This document shows positions 12,272 to 19,829 of a DNA stretch of 64,000 nt, piece by piece. The first letter of the stretch is position 1. The number at the start of each line of letters is the position of its first letter. The translations under genes were made by a program, and so were the position numbers. Under the pieces are notes generated by a model, which was not told the DNA's origin, searched no databases, and worked only from the letters and a program-made list of their open reading frames with translations. The DNA comes from Nitrospirota bacterium (GTDB taxonomy: Bacteria > Nitrospirota > Thermodesulfovibrionia > Thermodesulfovibrionales > JdFR-88): assembly GCA_014874185.1 (NCBI GenBank), contig JACWAF010000035.1, positions 62,001 through 126,000 on the forward strand, in the 5' to 3' direction.

Positions 12272-12610
12272 TTATATAGCGGCCTCGCCGCTTTCGCCGG
12301 TCCTTATCCTTATGGCGTCGTCCATGGTGGAGACGAATATCTTGCCGTCACCGATCTCGCCGGTGAGCACGGCCTCGCGGATGGCCTTGATGATCTTGTC
12401 GGCCTCCTTGTCGTTTACTATCACTTCCACCTTTGCCTTTGTCAGCAACTCCACTTTATAAGTCTTCCCGCGCACCTGCTGTTCCACCCCCTTCTGCTTT
12501 CCATGGCCTTCGACCCCGGAGATCATGAGGCCGGGGTGGCCCACCTTTTCCAGGGCGGCGCGCACATCGCCCACCTTGCCGGGGCGTATAATGGCTTCTA
12601 TCCTTTTCAT
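12272..12610 (-). CDS. Nitrogen regulatory protein P-II (GlnB/GlnK family)
   Basis: A 112-aa P-II signal protein. The T-loop (residues about 37-55, GHGKQKGVEQQVRGKTYKV) keeps Tyr51, the usual uridylylation site, but Tyr46 is Val. The ATP/ADP-binding loops [11 protein letters not shown] and the C-terminal RIRTGE are intact. P-II proteins sense 2-oxoglutarate and adenylate charge and gate ammonium channels or enzymes. The EQQVRGKTYKV T-loop resembles GlnK forms found with anaerobes and archaea. It is the last gene of the HTH-porin-permease operon and follows the permease-P-II fusion by 23 bp, so it may form hetero-oligomers with that fused domain. Confidence 0.93.
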   Translation of the reverse strand: MKRIEAIIRPGKVGDVRAALEKVGHPGLMISGVEGHGKQKGVEQQVRGKTYKVELLTKAKVEVIVNDKEADKIIKAIREAVLTGEIGDGKIFVSTMDDAIRIRTGESGEAAI

Positions 12611-12633: not shown

Positions 12634-14505
12634 TTATATGGCGTAAACGCCCTTCTCGCCGGTGCGGATCCGCATGGCCTCTTTCGCGTCCAGCACAAAG
12701 ACCTTGCCGTCGCCGATCTGACCGCTGCTAGAGACCTCCCTGATGATGTCCATCACCTTGGGCAGGTCCCAGTCGTTGACCACGATGTCAACCCGGACCT
12801 TTGGGAGAAAGGAGATCTTGTCGCTGGCCGCCGCCGCCCCAAGGCTCTGGCCATGCTGCCTGCCGAAGCCCTGGACCCTGGTCACCGTCATTCCCAGGAC
12901 GAGGTCCTCGTCCTTGAGGACTTCAACCAGGACGTCCACTTTTTCCGGGCGGATAATGGCCGAGATCATCTTCATTCCGTATGTCTTGCTCACGGAGGTC
13001 ATGATAACGTACCCGATGCTGATCAGGGCCCAGCCCCCGGCGATATAGAAGCAAATCTTCGCTTCGGTCTGGGAATCGGCGCTGCCGGTGGCGTTCAGGT
13101 ATATGATCGCGCCCAGCATGAGGACGTTTGCGACGATGCCCAGGCCGGGGATCAGCCCGTGCTTAACAAAGTTGAACTCCTTGCGTTTCCTGAAGGCGAC
13201 TATCGTCCACACGCAGATCAGTCCGTAGAGGACGAAGGTGCCGAAGTTGGAGGCCAGCGCTATGCCGGTGAGGCCCACAACCGACTGCACGCCTATCGCC
13301 GCGATGATGCTGGAGACGATGACCAGGCTCCATATGGCCGTATGGGGCGTGCTGAACTTGCCGCTCATGAACCCGATGAACTCCGGCAGCTCCCGGTCTT
13401 CGGCCATCCCGTTACTGATCCGCACGGCGGTGTTCATGCAGCTGAGGGTGGTGCCGACGATGGCGATGGCCACGGTGACCGCCATGGTGATCATCAGGCC
13501 GAACCCGATCCCGTGGAGCAGGTTGTTGCCGATCAGTTTCGCCATGTCTCCTATCGGCGCGCTCGAAGCCGCCGCGGCATCCATCCCGGTGAGGACCTTG
13601 CCCCCGCTCACCACGGCCAGTTTTTCGCTGACCATCGCGCCCGCGGCGAAGTATTCCAGAAGGTAGGCGATCACGCCCTGGATCACCAGAGAGAGGATGA
13701 TGGCCTTCGGGATGTTCTTCTCCGGCTGCCTGGTCTCAGCGGCCAGGGCGGTGCAGCTTTCAAAACCCACCAGGATCAGGATGGCCAGCGTGGACTGCAC
13801 CAGGACCCCGTTCAGGGTATGCGGCTTCACGATATCCCAGGCTCCGCTGAAGCTCCAGGCGGCCGCGCCCTGAGGATTGCTGAAGCGGTACCAGATGGCC
13901 AGGCCGCTGAAGATTACCAGGGTCACAAGCTGAATGACATTGATCCAGATGGCCGTCTTGGTGGAGCCGGTCACGCCCCTGTAGGCGATGTATCCGACCG
14001 CAAAAGCAAAGGCCGTACCGATAAGCACCAGGGCGGGGACCGACAGGTCGTGCCCGGTGAACTGGTTATAGATATAGCCGATCAGGGTGGCCATCATGGC
14101 CACCATTACGCCGGGGTAGACCCAGTAGAAGAGATGCGCGGCCCAGCCAGTGGCCAGCTTCGAGACGCGGGCCATGGAGGTTGCCGTTGGCTTGCTCTTG
14201 CCGTTGCCGTTGTCCAGGAAGGCCTTCTCCGCAAAGTATGCCGCGCTGGCGAACCCGGCCTGGGGATATATTTTGGCCAGTTCGGCGTAAGAGAGCGCTG
14301 TGAGGAAAGCGACTATCAGCGCGACCACGATGCCCGGCCAGATATCGCTGGCGACGGACGCCCCGCCCGGCGCGGTGGCGGAGGCCTGCAGTTGATACGT
14401 GATCCAGAGGAACGCCCCGGGCGCAATCAGCGCCATGGCGTTCATGGTGGCGCCCAGCAATCCCAGCGTGGGCGTGATTACGGGTGCATTCGTTCTTTCA
14501 GACAT
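12634..14505 (-). CDS. APC-superfamily amino acid permease with C-terminal P-II domain
   Basis: A 623-aa fusion. Residues 1-510 form an amino acid/polyamine permease with about 12 membrane segments; FESCTALAAETRQPEKNIPKAI is a typical APC loop. Residues 511-623 are a complete P-II domain: MKMISAIIRPEKVD, GFGRQ, SSSGQIGDGKVFVL and MRIRTGE. Its T-loop is rewritten to HGQSLGAAAASDKISF: the Tyr51 position is Asp and the Tyr46 position is Ala, so it cannot be uridylylated. The nucleotide-binding residues look intact. A built-in P-II domain suggests direct allosteric gating of transport by 2-oxoglutarate and ATP/ADP. Start supported by GGAGG 7 bp upstream. Substrate unknown. Confidence 0.9.
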   Translation of the reverse strand: MSERTNAPVITPTLGLLGATMNAMALIAPGAFLWITYQLQASATAPGGASVASDIWPGIVVALIVAFLTALSYAELAKIYPQAGFASAAYFAEKAFLDNGNGKSKPTATSMARVSKLATGWAAHLFYWVYPGVMVAMMATLIGYIYNQFTGHDLSVPALVLIGTAFAFAVGYIAYRGVTGSTKTAIWINVIQLVTLVIFSGLAIWYRFSNPQGAAAWSFSGAWDIVKPHTLNGVLVQSTLAILILVGFESCTALAAETRQPEKNIPKAIILSLVIQGVIAYLLEYFAAGAMVSEKLAVVSGGKVLTGMDAAAASSAPIGDMAKLIGNNLLHGIGFGLMITMAVTVAIAIVGTTLSCMNTAVRISNGMAEDRELPEFIGFMSGKFSTPHTAIWSLVIVSSIIAAIGVQSVVGLTGIALASNFGTFVLYGLICVWTIVAFRKRKEFNFVKHGLIPGLGIVANVLMLGAIIYLNATGSADSQTEAKICFYIAGGWALISIGYVIMTSVSKTYGMKMISAIIRPEKVDVLVEVLKDEDLVLGMTVTRVQGFGRQHGQSLGAAAASDKISFLPKVRVDIVVNDWDLPKVMDIIREVSSSGQIGDGKVFVLDAKEAMRIRTGEKGVYAI

Positions 14506-14526: not shown

Positions 14527-15660
14527 TTACCATCTATACATCAAGCCAAGCGCCAGCGTGTCCTGGCTCTTTTTGCCGTTGAACGATGCCCTGTCTGACC
14601 AGTCGTGCCTGTACTCGGGGCGGATGATAATGCCGGCCAGCTTGTACTGGGGCGTTATGGTTATCTCCTTCAGTTCCTGGGGCGTTCCGGTCCTCACGCC
14701 GTCCTCGTCCTTGAACCACTCGGCCCTCACCGCGCCGCTCACCTTGTCCGTGAAAACATAATTCACGTAACCCGCCGCCCCATACCAGACCGCATCCGTT
14801 CCGCCAGGGGCCTGATGCTGCTCGGCGGCGTAATCGGTGTTCACGGTAAAGGCGAGTTTGCTTGTGGCATTATATGTGCCCACCCAGTCGAAAAGAAAAC
14901 GGTTGTCGTGGTTATTGTCCGGCTCCTCCGGGCCGTACAGGAAATTGAAGGTCAGCGCGACCGGTGCAACCGGGGTCACCGCCGCCGAAAGCCCCACCGT
15001 CTTGCCATTATTGTTGTCGGTGGCATCGTCCCAGCCGTTAAGGAGATAGCCGGTGAGGCCCACCGCCTTGCTCACCGGATAGGAGACGGCCAGGCCGGTA
15101 TGAGTGAACGGTATCGCGTAATTGAACAGAAAGGACCGCGAGTAGTTGAGGTCGTCTATCGCCTCTATCACCTCGGCCCCGGTAAACGTGACGAACTTGC
15201 CGAACTGGAACTTTAGCCCGTTGCCTATCTTTGTCGCATAGGTAAGGTATGCCTCTGTGAGGTCGAAGGCCTCGCTCCGGTCCGGGTCCTCGCCGCTTGA
15301 AATGCCAAGCCCGTTTGCATGTATGAACTTTGCCGTCTCGCCCGCCGAGAGCTTCAGCTTGTAGCCAAGGCCCGCGTCCGGGCTCTTTGCGAACACAATC
15401 TCCGCCAGGTCAAGGGTAAAGCTGTTCGATTTGTGGTCGAAGACACGGAGGCCGTTCTCGCCCGATGATGGATTATCGAAATTGTAAGTATAGCCGCCCT
15501 GCAGGTAGATGCTCATCCCCAATGCGTCCTTAATGGACTGAAGGGTATCCGCCGTCTTCTGGGCGTCGGCGGACTTTGCGTCCTCCGCCCGCCCCGCCGC
15601 CGCAAGGCCCAGCACGAATACAAGCGCCAGCAAAGACCCCGCCAAAACTGCTCTCCTCAT
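14527..15660 (-). CDS. Outer-membrane beta-barrel porin (BBP2/OmpL-like)
   Basis: A 377-aa predicted outer-membrane porin. Signal peptide MRRAVLAGSLLALVFVLGLAAAGRA is followed by a short alpha segment and a barrel of alternating strands (YLQGGYTYNF, GNGLKFQFGKFVTF, GVRTGTPQELKEITITPQY), ending in the C-terminal aromatic LMYRW used for barrel insertion. The start was set at 15660, where AAGGAG lies 9 bp upstream, rather than the earlier in-frame ATG at 15690 inside the HTH gene. It is co-transcribed with the permease-P-II and P-II genes, so it likely passes a small nitrogenous solute across the outer membrane. Confidence 0.85.
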   Translation of the reverse strand: MRRAVLAGSLLALVFVLGLAAAGRAEDAKSADAQKTADTLQSIKDALGMSIYLQGGYTYNFDNPSSGENGLRVFDHKSNSFTLDLAEIVFAKSPDAGLGYKLKLSAGETAKFIHANGLGISSGEDPDRSEAFDLTEAYLTYATKIGNGLKFQFGKFVTFTGAEVIEAIDDLNYSRSFLFNYAIPFTHTGLAVSYPVSKAVGLTGYLLNGWDDATDNNNGKTVGLSAAVTPVAPVALTFNFLYGPEEPDNNHDNRFLFDWVGTYNATSKLAFTVNTDYAAEQHQAPGGTDAVWYGAAGYVNYVFTDKVSGAVRAEWFKDEDGVRTGTPQELKEITITPQYKLAGIIIRPEYRHDWSDRASFNGKKSQDTLALGLMYRW

Positions 15661-15682
15661 TTCTTTGCTCTCCTTTTCTGAT

Positions 15683-15922
15683 TTATTCATTTGTCAGAAT
15701 TTCCCGCTTCAGATTCCGCCCTGCGTTTTTCCCGTTCTTCACCACCGCTTTCTTCGTTATAAGGATCCCGTATTTTTGAATCCTGTATTTGAACATCCGC
15801 TCTGTCAAGCCAAGGAGCCTTGCCGCCCTGGACTTTACCCAGCCAGCCTCCCGGAGCGCCCTCAGGATCTCTCTTATCTCCAGTTCCTCAACCTTGTCCT
15901 TCAACTCCGGATTGCGCATCAT
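15683..15922 (-). CDS. Stand-alone Fis/NtrC-type HTH protein (79 aa)
   Basis: The protein is almost only a DNA-binding domain like the C-terminus of sigma-54 activators (NtrC/NifA, HTH_8). Helix 1 is VEELEIREILRALREAGWVK and the recognition unit is SRAARLLGLTERMFKYRIQKYGI. No receiver, GAF or AAA+ domain is present, so it cannot activate sigma-54 polymerase itself. A basic tail (KKAVVKNGKNAGRNLKRE) follows. Its ATG lies only 2 nt after the predicted sigma-54 start site, so the mRNA is near-leaderless; GGTGG overlaps the start region. It heads the porin/permease/P-II operon. Nearly the same HTH occurs in the 64-aa protein upstream. It may compete with or assist a full-length activator at ACA-N4-TGT sites (inference). 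Confidence 0.82.
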   Translation of the reverse strand: MMRNPELKDKVEELEIREILRALREAGWVKSRAARLLGLTERMFKYRIQKYGILITKKAVVKNGKNAGRNLKREILTNE

Positions 15923-15934
15923 GCCACCAGTAAA

Positions 15935-15950
15935 TGCGAAAAGCGTGCCA
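15935..15950 (-). promoter_or_regulatory. Sigma-54 promoter of the HTH-porin-permease-PII operon
   Basis: Minus-strand sequence TGGCACG-CTTT-TCGCA matches the -24/-12 consensus TGGCACG-N4-TTGCW with one mismatch. Predicted start about 15924, 2 nt before the ATG. An ACA-N4-TGT site lies about 80 bp upstream. Confidence 0.8.
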
Positions 15951-16028
15951 GCTTTAAAAGGCTTGAAATAAAAGGATTTTTCCTGATCGGCCCCGGGCAG
16001 AATTGTTGGCGGCGGACAAATCTGTCTT

Positions 16029-16038
16029 ACAAAAATGT
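16029..16038. promoter_or_regulatory. ACA-N4-TGT site (candidate enhancer)
   Basis: ACAAAAATGT in TTACAAAAATGTAG, about 80 bp upstream of the minus-strand sigma-54 promoter at 15935. It is the same motif as the clusters at 16411-16483 and 18015-18056. Confidence 0.6.
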
Positions 16039-16061
16039 AGAGAGGGGATTTTTTGTTTTTT

Positions 16062-16095
16062 GTGCCGGGCAGAGCGGGGAGACCCTGCCCGGCAC
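16062..16095. repeat. GC-rich stem-loop between the two HTH genes
   Basis: GTGCCGGGCAG and CTGCCCGGCAC flank a 12-nt loop. It lies downstream of the 64-aa HTH gene on the minus strand. There is no U-tract after it in that direction, so I call it a structural or attenuating hairpin rather than a standard terminator. Confidence 0.5.
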
Positions 16096-16141
16096 TCCGG
16101 AAAAGAGAGGAGGTTAGACAGGCACGTGCGCCGCTCTCCAG

Positions 16142-16336
16142 TTACTTGCTGATTCGGATTACAGCGCCCTTTTTTATCTCTATGCCGTATTTGGAGATCC
16201 GGTAGTTGAGCATCCTTTCGGTAATGCCAAGCCTGCGGGCGGCCCTGGACTTTATCCATCCGCTCTCGCTTAAGGCCAAAACTATTTCCCTGGTTTCAAG
16301 TTCCCTGATCTTTTCCTTCAAAGCATCGCGAGTCAT
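16142..16336 (-). CDS. Stand-alone Fis/NtrC-type HTH protein (64 aa)
   Basis: From ATG 16336 the protein is 64 aa: MTRDALKEKIRELETREIV, then ALSESGWIKSRAARRLGITE and RMLNYRISKYGIEIKKGAV. This is a bare Fis-type HTH as at the C-terminus of NifA/NtrC. The recognition helix differs from the 79-aa protein at only a few residues, so both should bind the same operator. An in-frame TTG at 16432 would add 32 residues but would start upstream of a strong sigma-54 promoter (16349-16364), so ATG 16336 is preferred; it is 2 nt from the predicted transcription start. The gene is divergent from amtB and shares its regulatory region. Confidence 0.82.
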   Translation of the reverse strand: MTRDALKEKIRELETREIVLALSESGWIKSRAARRLGITERMLNYRISKYGIEIKKGAVIRISK

Positions 16337-16348
16337 CTCTTCTGCTAA

Positions 16349-16364
16349 TGCTAAAACCATGCCA
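16349..16364 (-). promoter_or_regulatory. Sigma-54 promoter of the 64-aa HTH gene
   Basis: Minus strand TGGCATG-GTTT-TAGCA, two mismatches to the -24/-12 consensus. The surrounding AGC...ATT bases also match the promoter of the 79-aa HTH gene, suggesting duplication. Predicted start about 16338, ATG at 16336. Confidence 0.75.
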
Positions 16365-16410
16365 GCTAAAAGCGCTTGATTTTCAAGAGCTAACCGCCCA
16401 TCCGGGATTT

Positions 16411-16483
16411 TCAAAAATGTTTCCAGCGACAAAAATGTTGAACAAAAATGTCAGACAATTTCGTACTACTTAGACATTTTTGT
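16411..16483. promoter_or_regulatory. Cluster of four ACA-N4-TGT sites between divergent HTH gene and amtB
   Basis: Sites at 16411-16420 (TCAAAAATGT, one mismatch), 16429-16438 and 16442-16451 (both ACAAAAATGT, 13 bp apart), and 16474-16483 (inverted, ACATTTTTGT). They lie 45-120 bp upstream of both flanking sigma-54 promoters, the normal place for enhancer-binding activator sites. Confidence 0.65.
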
Positions 16484-16528: not shown

Positions 16529-16544
16529 TGGCATATATATTGTA
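16529..16544 (+). promoter_or_regulatory. Sigma-54 promoter of the first amtB
   Basis: TGGCATA-TATA-TTGTA: the -24 GG and the -12 TTG are at the right spacing; -12 GC is GT here. The gene start is 40 bp downstream. Confidence 0.65.
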
Positions 16545-16585: not shown

Positions 16586-17902
16586 ATGAGGTCAGGCAGG
16601 CGGAAGTTAAAGCTCTTAACCGTACTAATCACGGTCTTCGCCATGGCGAAAACCAGCCTCGCGGCGGGCGGCCCGGGGCGGATAGACAGCGGGGACACGG
16701 CGTGGATGCTGATCTCAACGGCACTCGTGATGCTCATGCCCCCGGGGCTGGCACTCTTTTACGGGGGAATGGTGAGGCGCAAGAACGTCCTTAGCACCCT
16801 GATGCACAGCTTCACCGCGATAGCCCTGATAAGCGTGCAGTGGATACTGTTTGGGTATTCGCTCTCCTTCGGGCCGGATATAAGAGGGGTCATAGGCGGC
16901 CTTCAATGGGCCGGGCTGAACGGCGTGGGGCTCTCCCCCAACCCCAATTACGCCCCCACAGTCCACCACCTTGCGTTTATGATCTACCAGATGATGTTCG
17001 CCGTCATAACCCCGGCCCTCATAAGCGGCGCGTTTGCCGAGAGGATGAAATTCTCGACTTACCTCGTCTTCATCCTGCTCTGGTCCACCCTGGTCTATGA
17101 CCCCGTCGCCCATTGGGTCTGGGGAATGGGCGGGTGGCTCAGGGAGATGGGGATTCTGGACTTCGCGGGCGGCGTGGTCGTGCATGCCACAAGCGGTTTC
17201 TCCGCGCTTGCCGCCGCCCTGTATATCGGCAAGAGAAAGGGTTTCCTGCACGAGCCGATGCCCCCGCATAACCTGCCCATGACCGTTATCGGCGCGGGGC
17301 TTTTATGGTTCGGCTGGTTCGGGTTCAACGCCGGAAGCGCCCTTTCCTCGGGCAGGCTGAGCACGGAGGCCTTTGTCACCACCCACGCGGCGGCCGTTGC
17401 CGCCACCCTCACCTGGGTCTTTATAGAATGGCGCCACAGGGGCAAGCCCACCATGTTCGGGGCCATCACGGGCTCAATAGCCGGATTGGCCACCATCACC
17501 CCGGCGGCGGGCTATGTGACCCCGCTCTCCGCACTGGCCATAGGCGTGCTGGCGGGAGCGGCCTGCTACACCGCCCTTAATATGAAGGCCATATTCGGTT
17601 ACGATGACGCGCTGGACGCCTTCGGCGTCCACGGTGTTGGCGGCTCCGTGGGCACCATCTGCGCCGGGATATTCGCTACAGTGGCCGTGAACTCGGCCGG
17701 GGCCAACGGACTTCTTAATGGCAACCCCAGGCAGCTGCTCCTTCAGGGCGCGGCCGTGCTCTTCGTTGCCGCTTATTCCTTTATCGCGAGCATGGTGCTT
17801 TTCAAGTTCCTGGATAAGCTCCTGGGCCTCCGGGTGGGAGACAAGCACGAGGACTCCGGCCTGGATCTTAGCGAACACGGCGAACAGGGGTACTACCTGT
17901 AA
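16586..17902 (+). CDS. amtB: Ammonium channel AmtB (first copy)
   Basis: Inner-membrane ammonia/ammonium channel, 438 aa. A cleavable N-terminal segment (LLTVLITVFAMAKTSLA) precedes about 11 membrane helices starting at SGDTAWMLISTALVMLM. The twin pore histidines are in VVVHATSGFSALAAAL and GVHGVGGSVGTI, and the phenylalanine gate lies in AFMIYQMMFAVITPALISGAFAERMKF. The cytoplasmic tail LGLRVGDKHEDSGLDLSEHGEQGYYL is the usual P-II contact region. It is driven by a sigma-54 promoter and ends at a strong terminator, so it is monocistronic. Confidence 0.96.
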   Translation: MRSGRRKLKLLTVLITVFAMAKTSLAAGGPGRIDSGDTAWMLISTALVMLMPPGLALFYGGMVRRKNVLSTLMHSFTAIALISVQWILFGYSLSFGPDIRGVIGGLQWAGLNGVGLSPNPNYAPTVHHLAFMIYQMMFAVITPALISGAFAERMKFSTYLVFILLWSTLVYDPVAHWVWGMGGWLREMGILDFAGGVVVHATSGFSALAAALYIGKRKGFLHEPMPPHNLPMTVIGAGLLWFGWFGFNAGSALSSGRLSTEAFVTTHAAAVAATLTWVFIEWRHRGKPTMFGAITGSIAGLATITPAAGYVTPLSALAIGVLAGAACYTALNMKAIFGYDDALDAFGVHGVGGSVGTICAGIFATVAVNSAGANGLLNGNPRQLLLQGAAVLFVAAYSFIASMVLFKFLDKLLGLRVGDKHEDSGLDLSEHGEQGYYL

Positions 17903-18014: not shown

Positions 18015-18056
18015 ACACTTTTGTAAAACAAATTTGTCCAGCATCTACAATTTTGT
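18015..18056. promoter_or_regulatory. Three ACA-N4-TGT sites upstream of glnK-amtB
   Basis: ACACTTTTGT (18015-18024), ACAAATTTGT (18028-18037, perfect palindrome, 13 bp from the first) and ACAATTTTGT (18047-18056). They sit 48-89 bp upstream of the sigma-54 promoter at 18104. Confidence 0.65.
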
Positions 18057-18103: not shown

Positions 18104-18119
18104 TGGCACATTTTTTTCT
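18104..18119 (+). promoter_or_regulatory. Sigma-54 promoter of glnK-amtB
   Basis: TGGCACA-TTTT-TTTCT: full TGGCAC at -24, and -12 TTTCT for TTGCW. The glnK ATG is 36 bp downstream with GGAGGAG as ribosome site. Confidence 0.7.
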
Positions 18120-18154: not shown

Positions 18155-18493
18155 ATGAAGATGATTACGGCACTTATCAAACACACCCGGCTGGATGCGG
18201 TCCGGAAGGCCCTGGTGGAGATCGGCGTGCAGGGGATGACCGTGACCGAAGCCAAGGGCTTTGGAAGACAGAAAGGCTTTACGGAGGTCTACAGGGGCGT
18301 CGAATACGAGGTGAGATTTCTGCCCAAGATAAAACTGGAAGTGGCCGTCCCCGCCGCCAGGGTGGACGAGGTGATAAAGGCCATAGAAGAGAACGCCAGG
18401 ACCGGCGAGATCGGGGACGGAAAGATATTCGTCCATGGCCTTGAAGAAGCTATAAGGATAAGGACCGGAGAAACAGGAGAGGAGGCACTCTAG
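18155..18493 (+). CDS. glnK: Nitrogen regulatory protein P-II GlnK
   Basis: A 112-aa canonical P-II protein. The T-loop [24 protein letters not shown] has both Tyr46 and Tyr51, so it should be uridylylated by Gln[14 protein letters not shown] and RIRTGE bind nucleotide. It is co-transcribed with the second amtB (4-bp gap), the classic glnK-amtB pair in which GlnK plugs AmtB under nitrogen excess. Sigma-54 control fits nitrogen limitation. Confidence 0.96.
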
Positions 18494-18497
18494 AAGG

Positions 18498-19829
18498 ATG
18501 AAATTCAGGTTGAAAAAAGGCAAAAAGTTTGTTTTGACCTCGCTCCTGGCCATGCTGGGCGTCCTGGGCGCGGCGGGGGTGTGCTTCGCGCAGGCGCCCG
18601 TCACCCAGCTTATAAACTCCGGCGATACGGCATGGATGCTCATCTCCACCGCCCTTGTGATGCTGATGACCCCGGGGCTCGCGTTCTTTTACGGCGGCAT
18701 GGTGAGGAGCAAAAATGTGCTTGGCACCATCATGCACAGTTTCATAATCCTTTGCGTCATAAGCATTGTCTGGGTGCTCTGGGGATATACGCTCGCCTTC
18801 GGCCCGGACAGGGGCGGCTTTATCGGCGGGCTGGAATACCTGGGGCTGAACGGGGTGGGGCAGGGGGGCGCGCCGCTGGCGCCCACAATCCCGCACCTTG
18901 TATTCATGATGTTCCAGGGGATGTTCGCCGTGATAACCCCGGCCCTCATTACCGGGGCCTTCGCCGAGAGGATGAAGTTCTCGGCGGTCGTATTCTTTAC
19001 CGTCCTGTGGACCACCTTCGTCTACTCGCCCGTATGCCACTGGGTATGGGGCGGGGGCTGGATAGAAACCCACCTGCACGCACTGGACTTCGCGGGCGGC
19101 ACGGTGGTGCATATAAACTCGGCGGCGGCGGCGATAGTGGCGGCGATAGTGGTGGGCAGAAGAAAAGGCTACATGAAAGAGCCGATCGCGCCCCATAACC
19201 TGCCCCTGACCATAATGGGGGCGGCGCTTTTGTGGTTCGGGTGGTTCGGCTTCAACGCGGGCAGCGCCCTTACATCGGGCGGCCTGGCCTCGCTTGCCTT
19301 CGTTACGACCAATACGGCCAGCGCCGCGGCGGCCCTTGGCTGGGCCGGCGTGGAGTACATGCACAGAAAAAAATCAACCGCCCTGGGCGCGGTCTCCGGC
19401 GCGGTTGCAGGGCTTGTTGCCATAACCCCCGCCGCGGGCTTCGTCACCCCGCTTTCATCTATAATTATCGGCCTTGTCGCGGGCGGCATCTGCTATCTGG
19501 CCGTGAGCCTTAAACCCCGGTTCGGTTATGATGACGCGCTGGATGTGCTTGGCATCCACGGGGTAGGCGGCACATGGGGCGCCATCGCCACCGGGATATT
19601 CGCAACCCTGGCCGTGAACCCGGCCGGGGCAAACGGGCTCCTCCTGGGCAATGTCAAACAGTTTATGAGCCAGATCATAGCGGTGGCCGCAACCTGGATT
19701 TATTCTATGGTTGTCTCACTTGTCCTCTTGAAGATAGTTGACTGGACTATAGGACTTAGGGTGGAAGAGAAGCACGAAGAGATCGGGCTCGATTTGAGCC
19801 AGCACGGAGAAACGGGTTATTATCTCTAG
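18498..19829 (+). CDS. amtB: Ammonium channel AmtB (second copy)
   Basis: A 443-aa ammonium channel closely similar to the first copy. Signal segment LTSLLAMLGVLGAAGVCFAQA; conserved SGDTAWMLISTALVMLMTPGLAFFYGGMVR; pore histidines in VVHINSAAAAIVAAI and GIHGVGGTWGAI; P-II contact tail LGLRVEEKHEEIGLDLSQHGETGYYL (family form IGLRV). It is coupled to glnK, so it is the main GlnK partner. The two AmtB genes look like an old local duplication. Confidence 0.96.
   Translation: MKFRLKKGKKFVLTSLLAMLGVLGAAGVCFAQAPVTQLINSGDTAWMLISTALVMLMTPGLAFFYGGMVRSKNVLGTIMHSFIILCVISIVWVLWGYTLAFGPDRGGFIGGLEYLGLNGVGQGGAPLAPTIPHLVFMMFQGMFAVITPALITGAFAERMKFSAVVFFTVLWTTFVYSPVCHWVWGGGWIETHLHALDFAGGTVVHINSAAAAIVAAIVVGRRKGYMKEPIAPHNLPLTIMGAALLWFGWFGFNAGSALTSGGLASLAFVTTNTASAAAALGWAGVEYMHRKKSTALGAVSGAVAGLVAITPAAGFVTPLSSIIIGLVAGGICYLAVSLKPRFGYDDALDVLGIHGVGGTWGAIATGIFATLAVNPAGANGLLLGNVKQFMSQIIAVAATWIYSMVVSLVLLKIVDWTIGLRVEEKHEEIGLDLSQHGETGYYL

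Follow-up and report, generated by a model that had tools for sequence, protein, structure and literature searches.

We found two genes in a 64,000-nt stretch of a Nitrospirota genome (hereafter the window) that each encode a NifA/Fis-type helix-turn-helix (HTH) domain as the whole gene product and are each preceded by a sigma-54 promoter, in the midst of genes for ammonium transporters and PII proteins. Judged from sequence, these genes (mini1 and mini2, collectively the minis) are members of a long-standing, conserved family of putative enhancer-binding domains that stand alone. On balance, we lean toward a role as feedback competitors, in which the mini would occupy the enhancer of a NifA-like activator, ACT515, and thereby exert negative feedback.

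Stand-alone HTH genes and their promoters

The locus contains the following features, with the basis of each assignment given in brackets where it applies.

12272-12610, minus strand: PII protein (Pfam)
12634-14505, minus strand: amino-acid permease fused to a PII domain (Pfam)
14527-15690, minus strand: BBP2-type beta-barrel porin, its start overlapping the end of mini1 by 8 nt
15683-15922, minus strand: mini1, stand-alone NifA/Fis-type HTH protein of 79 aa, or 78 aa from the second ATG (ORF, Pfam, family alignment)
15935-15950, minus strand: sigma-54 -24/-12 promoter of mini1, TGGCACGCTTTTCGCA (sigma-54 scoring)
16016-16038: two ACA-N4-TGT sites (16016-16025 and 16029-16038) upstream of the mini1 promoter
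16142-16336, minus strand: mini2, stand-alone NifA/Fis-type HTH protein of 64 aa, divergent from amtB (ORF, Pfam, family alignment)
16349-16364, minus strand: sigma-54 -24/-12 promoter of mini2, TGGCATGGTTTTAGCA (sigma-54 scoring)
16369-16381, minus strand: IHF-like site AATCAA-GCGC-TTT, with one mismatch to WATCAANNNNTTR, adjoining the mini2 -24 element (by eye)
16429-16483: three palindromic ACA-N4-TGT putative enhancer sites (16429-16438, 16442-16451 and 16474-16483) common to the divergent mini2 and amtB promoters
16529-16544, plus strand: sigma-54-like promoter of amtB, TGGCATATATATTGTA (sigma-54 scoring)
16586-17902, plus strand: amtB ammonium transporter, divergent from mini2 (Pfam, NCBIfam)
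18015-18056: three ACA-N4-TGT sites (18015-18024, 18028-18037 and 18047-18056) upstream of the PII-amtB2 genes
18104-18119, plus strand: weaker sigma-54-like site ahead of the PII gene, TGGCACATTTTTTTCT (sigma-54 scoring)
18155-18493, plus strand: PII protein of GlnB/GlnK type (Pfam)
18498-19829, plus strand: second amtB (Pfam, NCBIfam)

Both ORFs were located on the minus strand where an earlier note on this DNA had placed them, with the recognition helices that it quoted, and its description of them as bare DNA-binding domains was borne out. The sole Pfam match in each was HTH_8 (PF02954), with E-values of 1.3e-10 and 8.8e-11 and scores of 41.3 and 41.8 bits against a gathering cut-off of 22 bits; Pfam revealed no AAA+ or receiver domain in either protein and, lacking a match to PF00158, neither qualifies as a sigma-54 enhancer-binding protein (bEBP). 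The top NCBIfam model for both was TIGR01817 (nifA), of which they matched the C-terminus at 37 and 36.5 bits, far from the whole-protein equivalog cut-off of 528.85. A search of PHROGs returned one weak match, to mini1 only, of unannotated function. The mechanically called ORF of mini2 begins at an upstream TTG and is 96 aa long, but the sigma-54 promoter falls within that extension, so translation probably begins at the ATG at 16336, giving 64 aa.

The first gene of its operon, mini1 is followed in the same direction by the BBP2 porin, the permease-PII fusion and a PII gene, and opposite mini2 lies a divergent amtB-PII-amtB-GATase cluster. Copies of the permease-PII fusion (12634-14505) occurred at 76-81% identity in several relatives of family f1. 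Searches yielded only a tRNA among Rfam families in the window and no nifH above cut-off in the genome. A hairpin at 16062-16095, between mini2 and the mini1 promoter (-29.9 kcal/mol, z -5.6), is flanked by an A-tract; it has no U-run and was dropped as a candidate mini2/mini1 terminator.

The sigma-54 promoters that the earlier note had reported beside the two genes were recovered as a strong -24/-12 site for each. If the transcript is taken to begin 26 nt downstream of the first T in the -24/-12 site, the usual sigma-54 geometry, the predicted leaders of the two window minis are ~2-5 nt long, the mini2 mRNA beginning ~2 nt before its ATG; the median leader across the mini family is 13 nt (n = 58 copies). 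All six occurrences of ACA-(A/T)4-TGT in the window fall within this locus (16029, 16429, 16442, 16474, 18028 and 18047). Two such sites with 2-12 nt between them (a strict pair) were found at two places in the 2.43-Mb genome, both at this locus, and a reversed control pattern was absent throughout that genome. The ACA-N4-TGT sites are thus present in the minis' own promoters, as the earlier note had said, and a feedback loop is therefore predicted.

A conserved family at the head of ammonium operons

Small frames of the same kind (~60-120 aa) were present in at least 61 of the 101 genomes of relatives, counts being lower bounds, and were HTH-only throughout, at 56-123 aa. Across 60 aligned copies the median dN/dS was 0.10 (260 pairs with finite dS among 393). 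Genes for Amt, PII or permease-PII proteins lay downstream in the same direction within five genes of 52 of 61 copies, and the upstream gene was divergent or more than 120 nt away in 48 of 60. Using our own scoring of the sigma-54 consensus, a site scoring at least 14 of 17.5 occurred within 160 nt upstream of 58 of 61 copies, as compared with 5% of random 160-mers; at a score of at least 15, the figures were 51 copies and 1.6%.

The domain content of the minis resembles the C-terminal fragment of an activator, and the earlier note had named as refutation a frameshift showing them to be remnants of one longer gene. The genes are intact, however, and the low dN/dS (~0.10), the presence in at least 61 of 101 genomes, and the promoter and start that nearly every copy possesses rule out a frameshifted or broken activator; chance ORFs are ruled out because the minis are conserved in relatives. 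We therefore assign a vanishingly small probability to the minis being remnants or spurious ORFs.

ACA-N4-TGT was found in 53 of 60 mini promoter regions, taken as up to 220 bp upstream of the -24 element (one of the 61 copies was left out, its sigma-54 score being below 13), whereas a first-order simulation predicted 2.4. The copies cluster ~50 and ~70 bp upstream of -24 and are spaced mostly by 18-20 bp, or by 13 bp in some. An IHF-like WATCAANNNNTTR with at most one mismatch stood beside the -24 element in 36 of the 60 regions versus 1.7% of shuffles. All of these upstream regions share descent, and the counts of sigma-54, ACA-N4-TGT and IHF-like sites are therefore not independent trials.

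In a scan of genome contigs, a small mini ORF was present at 66 of 80 loci (at L210 as a contig-end fragment), another 12 encoded full-length activators of 456-544 aa in Aminicenantes/Acidobacteria records, and two (L166 and L185) could not be sorted with our own ORF caller; loci L232 and L233 are empty, 10-base placeholders. Among the matches listed, small frames also occurred in families of the same class and in three families of other classes. Loci from other classes had a mini in 13 of 13 cases and an adjacent Amt/PII gene in 12 of 13, and two sites ~30 bp apart lay upstream of the sigma-54 site in 7 of 13. Relatives of family f21 keep the mini without a clear site pair. The family thus extends into further classes of the phylum, with its members at the head of ammonium operons. 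In some families, comprising 8 of 61 minis, the HTH is followed by a KEVRW-type C-terminal tail, possibly an interaction tail.

A partner activator and its probable paired site

A search for a full-length activator with a matching HTH, proposed in the earlier note, led to ACT515 (G000 C20), a NifA-like GAF-AAA+-HTH protein of 515 aa encoded elsewhere in the same genome, which scores 512 bits against TIGR01817, just under the cut-off. Its HTH is the closest to both minis among the 18 full-length activators of the genome, with 24 identities in each local alignment. The recognition helix reads T-E-R-M in the minis and mostly T-P-R-Q in ACT515 proteins (T-P-R-M in this genome).

Full ACT515 orthologues, judged from coverage, were found in 86 of the 101 genomes, and a strict site pair in 81 (reversed control, 4). 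An orthologue was present in 57 of 61 mini-bearing and 29 of 40 mini-less genomes (Fisher p 0.008), the mini, ACT515 and site sets of this contingency table having been read by hand from search listings; the four mini-bearing genomes in which ACT515 went undetected (G004, G055, G070 and G086) are all multi-contig. Among mini-less genomes, the paired site occurred in 23 of 29 with ACT515 but in 2 of 11 without it (p 0.0007). The same comparison is uninformative in mini-bearing genomes, where 52 of the 57 genomes with ACT515 and all 4 of those lacking it have the pair. The four f9 genomes read have the site or sites, the sigma-54 promoter and the amt operon but no mini, their promoters leading directly into an ORF placed like the porin and then amtB and glnK; the one such porin-position ORF scanned had no Pfam match. 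Since the site tracks ACT515 in mini-less genomes and the f9 promoters lack a mini, the paired site most likely belongs to ACT515, and the mini is an addition. Genes behind paired sites included amtB and porins and also NifH, NifD and NifB, which were identified by reading the sequences. The distance within a pair seemed to vary with the kind of promoter, being 18-19 bp for mini operons, 17 bp for some amt operons and 20 bp for NifH-type promoters.

We also considered whether each mini had recently been copied from the ACT515 HTH of its own genome. This idea was rejected on a 48-column HTH tree, with few columns and bootstrap support that has not settled, in which the minis group with the HTHs of full-length Aminicenantes activators, apart from ACT515. 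Those activators have the mini-type helix, but paired ACA-N4-TGT sites were present at 0 of their 12 loci, and helix type alone is therefore no proof of the site. The most mini-like HTHs of full-length proteins, among the matches listed, were in activator frames of family f20; at one f20 locus (L286; G118 C87:12500-22500) such an activator follows amtB-glnK, and no separate mini was called there. An 880-aa frame in genome G067 (L220:5166-7808, minus strand, single contig) joins a nearly complete ammonium transporter (residues 4-383) to a GAF-AAA+-HTH part that is an ACT515 orthologue. The PII gene that lies between or beside transporter and activator in other f9 loci is not between them here, and the product is possibly a membrane-tethered sigma-54 activator.

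Possible roles and relation to known proteins

An AlphaFold2 model of the mini built with 60 relatives (pLDDT 90) starts with a long helix, followed by the HTH and a C-terminal hairpin. Foldseek placed 2m8g first (E 1.3e-3) and Fis next among 586 matches, none of which had an E-value of 0.001 or lower; 2m8g, a solved DNA-binding domain of a sigma-54 activator, was also best among PDB sequences (profile E 1.9e-15). The title of that entry names sigma-54 activator DNA-binding domains, and we take the protein to be Nlh2 of Aquifex. The NifA C-terminal domain represented by 2m8g is thus the best match in sequence and fold (55% identity in the Foldseek alignment), but it ends a GAF-AAA+ activator, whereas the mini is the whole gene product. 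With Fis, the nucleoid protein of E. coli, the minis share the stand-alone state and the HTH fold (TM ~0.7), and in this sense they are Fis-like, although Fis is only 24% identical to the mini model. Fis has an N-terminal beta-hairpin region, is highly abundant and binds many degenerate sites genome-wide; the N-terminal region of Fis was not seen in the mini model, and the mini lies in a single regulated operon, its promoter bearing a specific palindrome. The small Fis-like HTH protein NinH of phage lambda is also comparable, but it is a phage gene, and the portion of PMC7166090 available ties it to neither sigma-54 promoters nor nitrogen genes.

We propose that ACT515 would bind paired ACAAAATTGT-type sites ~50-90 bp upstream of sigma-54 promoters and turn on ammonium-uptake operons (in relatives, also nif) when nitrogen is short. 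The mini would be the first gene transcribed from such a promoter and, having a near-identical recognition helix, should recognize those same sites; lacking an AAA+ domain, it could not open the promoter, and as it accumulated it would displace ACT515 and damp the operon. The nitrogen response, the binding, the competition and its negative sign are what we infer, and enhancer occupancy with negative feedback would be the simplest reading because helix and sites are shared and the AAA+ domain is missing. Of the roles suggested in the earlier note, a competitor fits best for the same reasons, the competition itself being presumptive; the features of the sequence do not fix the sign of the effect. 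The isolated DNA-binding domain of Gluconacetobacter NifA binds its UAS, according to the part of PMC10590331 available, but as a monomer and weakly (Kd 20 uM), so that the mini would have to be plentiful to compete. The classical NifA UAS given there is TGT-N10-ACA, as opposed to ACA-N4-TGT here. Our search of open-licence papers found no precedent for competition by an isolated domain. One is said to have been provided by Morett et al. in 1988.

It is conceivable, though unlikely, that the mini is instead an architectural helper that binds or bends the enhancer in the manner of Fis and aids the assembly of ACT515 dimers on the pairs, giving positive feedback. The fold is close to that of Fis, and the preferred 18-20 bp spacing of the pairs together with the IHF-like site adjoining -24 points to a promoter with a defined shape, but the pairs track ACT515 alone, and mini-less genomes (f9 and most of f3) have the same sites and sigma-54 promoters, where such a helper is evidently unneeded. 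The Fis-like bending factor of the earlier note may still apply, but the six W-core sites of the window are confined to a single locus, and the genome yielded no stand-alone HTH_8 gene besides the minis. A dominant-negative role through heterodimers of mini and ACT515, formed at a shared HTH dimer interface and blocking oligomer assembly or redirecting the activator, in place of separate binding to DNA, seems improbable. The HTHs are similar and ACT515 co-occurs with most minis, but the NifA domain on its own is a monomer when free of DNA (PMC10590331, in part). The difference in the recognition helix and the separate tree grouping indicate that the specificity of the mini may differ from that of ACT515. 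It is quite doubtful that this extends to other targets, as for a small repressor acting locally on genes that are not part of the ammonium regulon, since mini promoters carry ACT515-type sites and the strict pair is confined to this locus in its own genome. A subunit recruiting a separate AAA+ protein, also suggested in the earlier note, found no candidate in the genome's HTH_8 and PF00158 lists; C37, the one clear sigma-54 AAA+ protein there without an HTH_8 match, was rejected as an HTH-less partner, as it ends in a divergent Fis-like HTH of its own.

Stand-alone Fis-type proteins are already known (Fis, and NinH as described in excerpts of PMC7166090); new here is one that is NifA-type, locus-specific and sigma-54-driven. 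No description of stand-alone HTH genes with Amt/PII, and no paper matching Thermodesulfovibrio, sigma-54 and ammonium transporter, was found in the open-licence literature, and excerpts of PMC12501866 mention a nifA homologue in Thermodesulfovibrio and no mini-type gene. With slightly less than even confidence, we view the mini as a dedicated, long-kept enhancer-occupying protein of nitrogen control, both in Thermodesulfovibrionia and in certain other classes of that phylum. In this view a NifA-type domain would have separated from its activator to become the initial product of the operon that it damps; it would be Fis-like but separate from classical Fis, and perhaps generally useful as an anti-enhancer device at sigma-54 promoters. 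An origin of Fis from an NtrC-type HTH has been proposed (Morett and Bork, 1998, as cited in the available part of PMC7166090), and the mini would resemble a stage in it, with target site and partner activator named. The predicted nitrogen regulon of paired ACAAAATTGT sites and a NifA-like activator would concern a little-studied group with Thermodesulfovibrio-like diazotrophs among its members and, if the proposal is true, a brake built in at the enhancer itself would be added to sigma-54 control.
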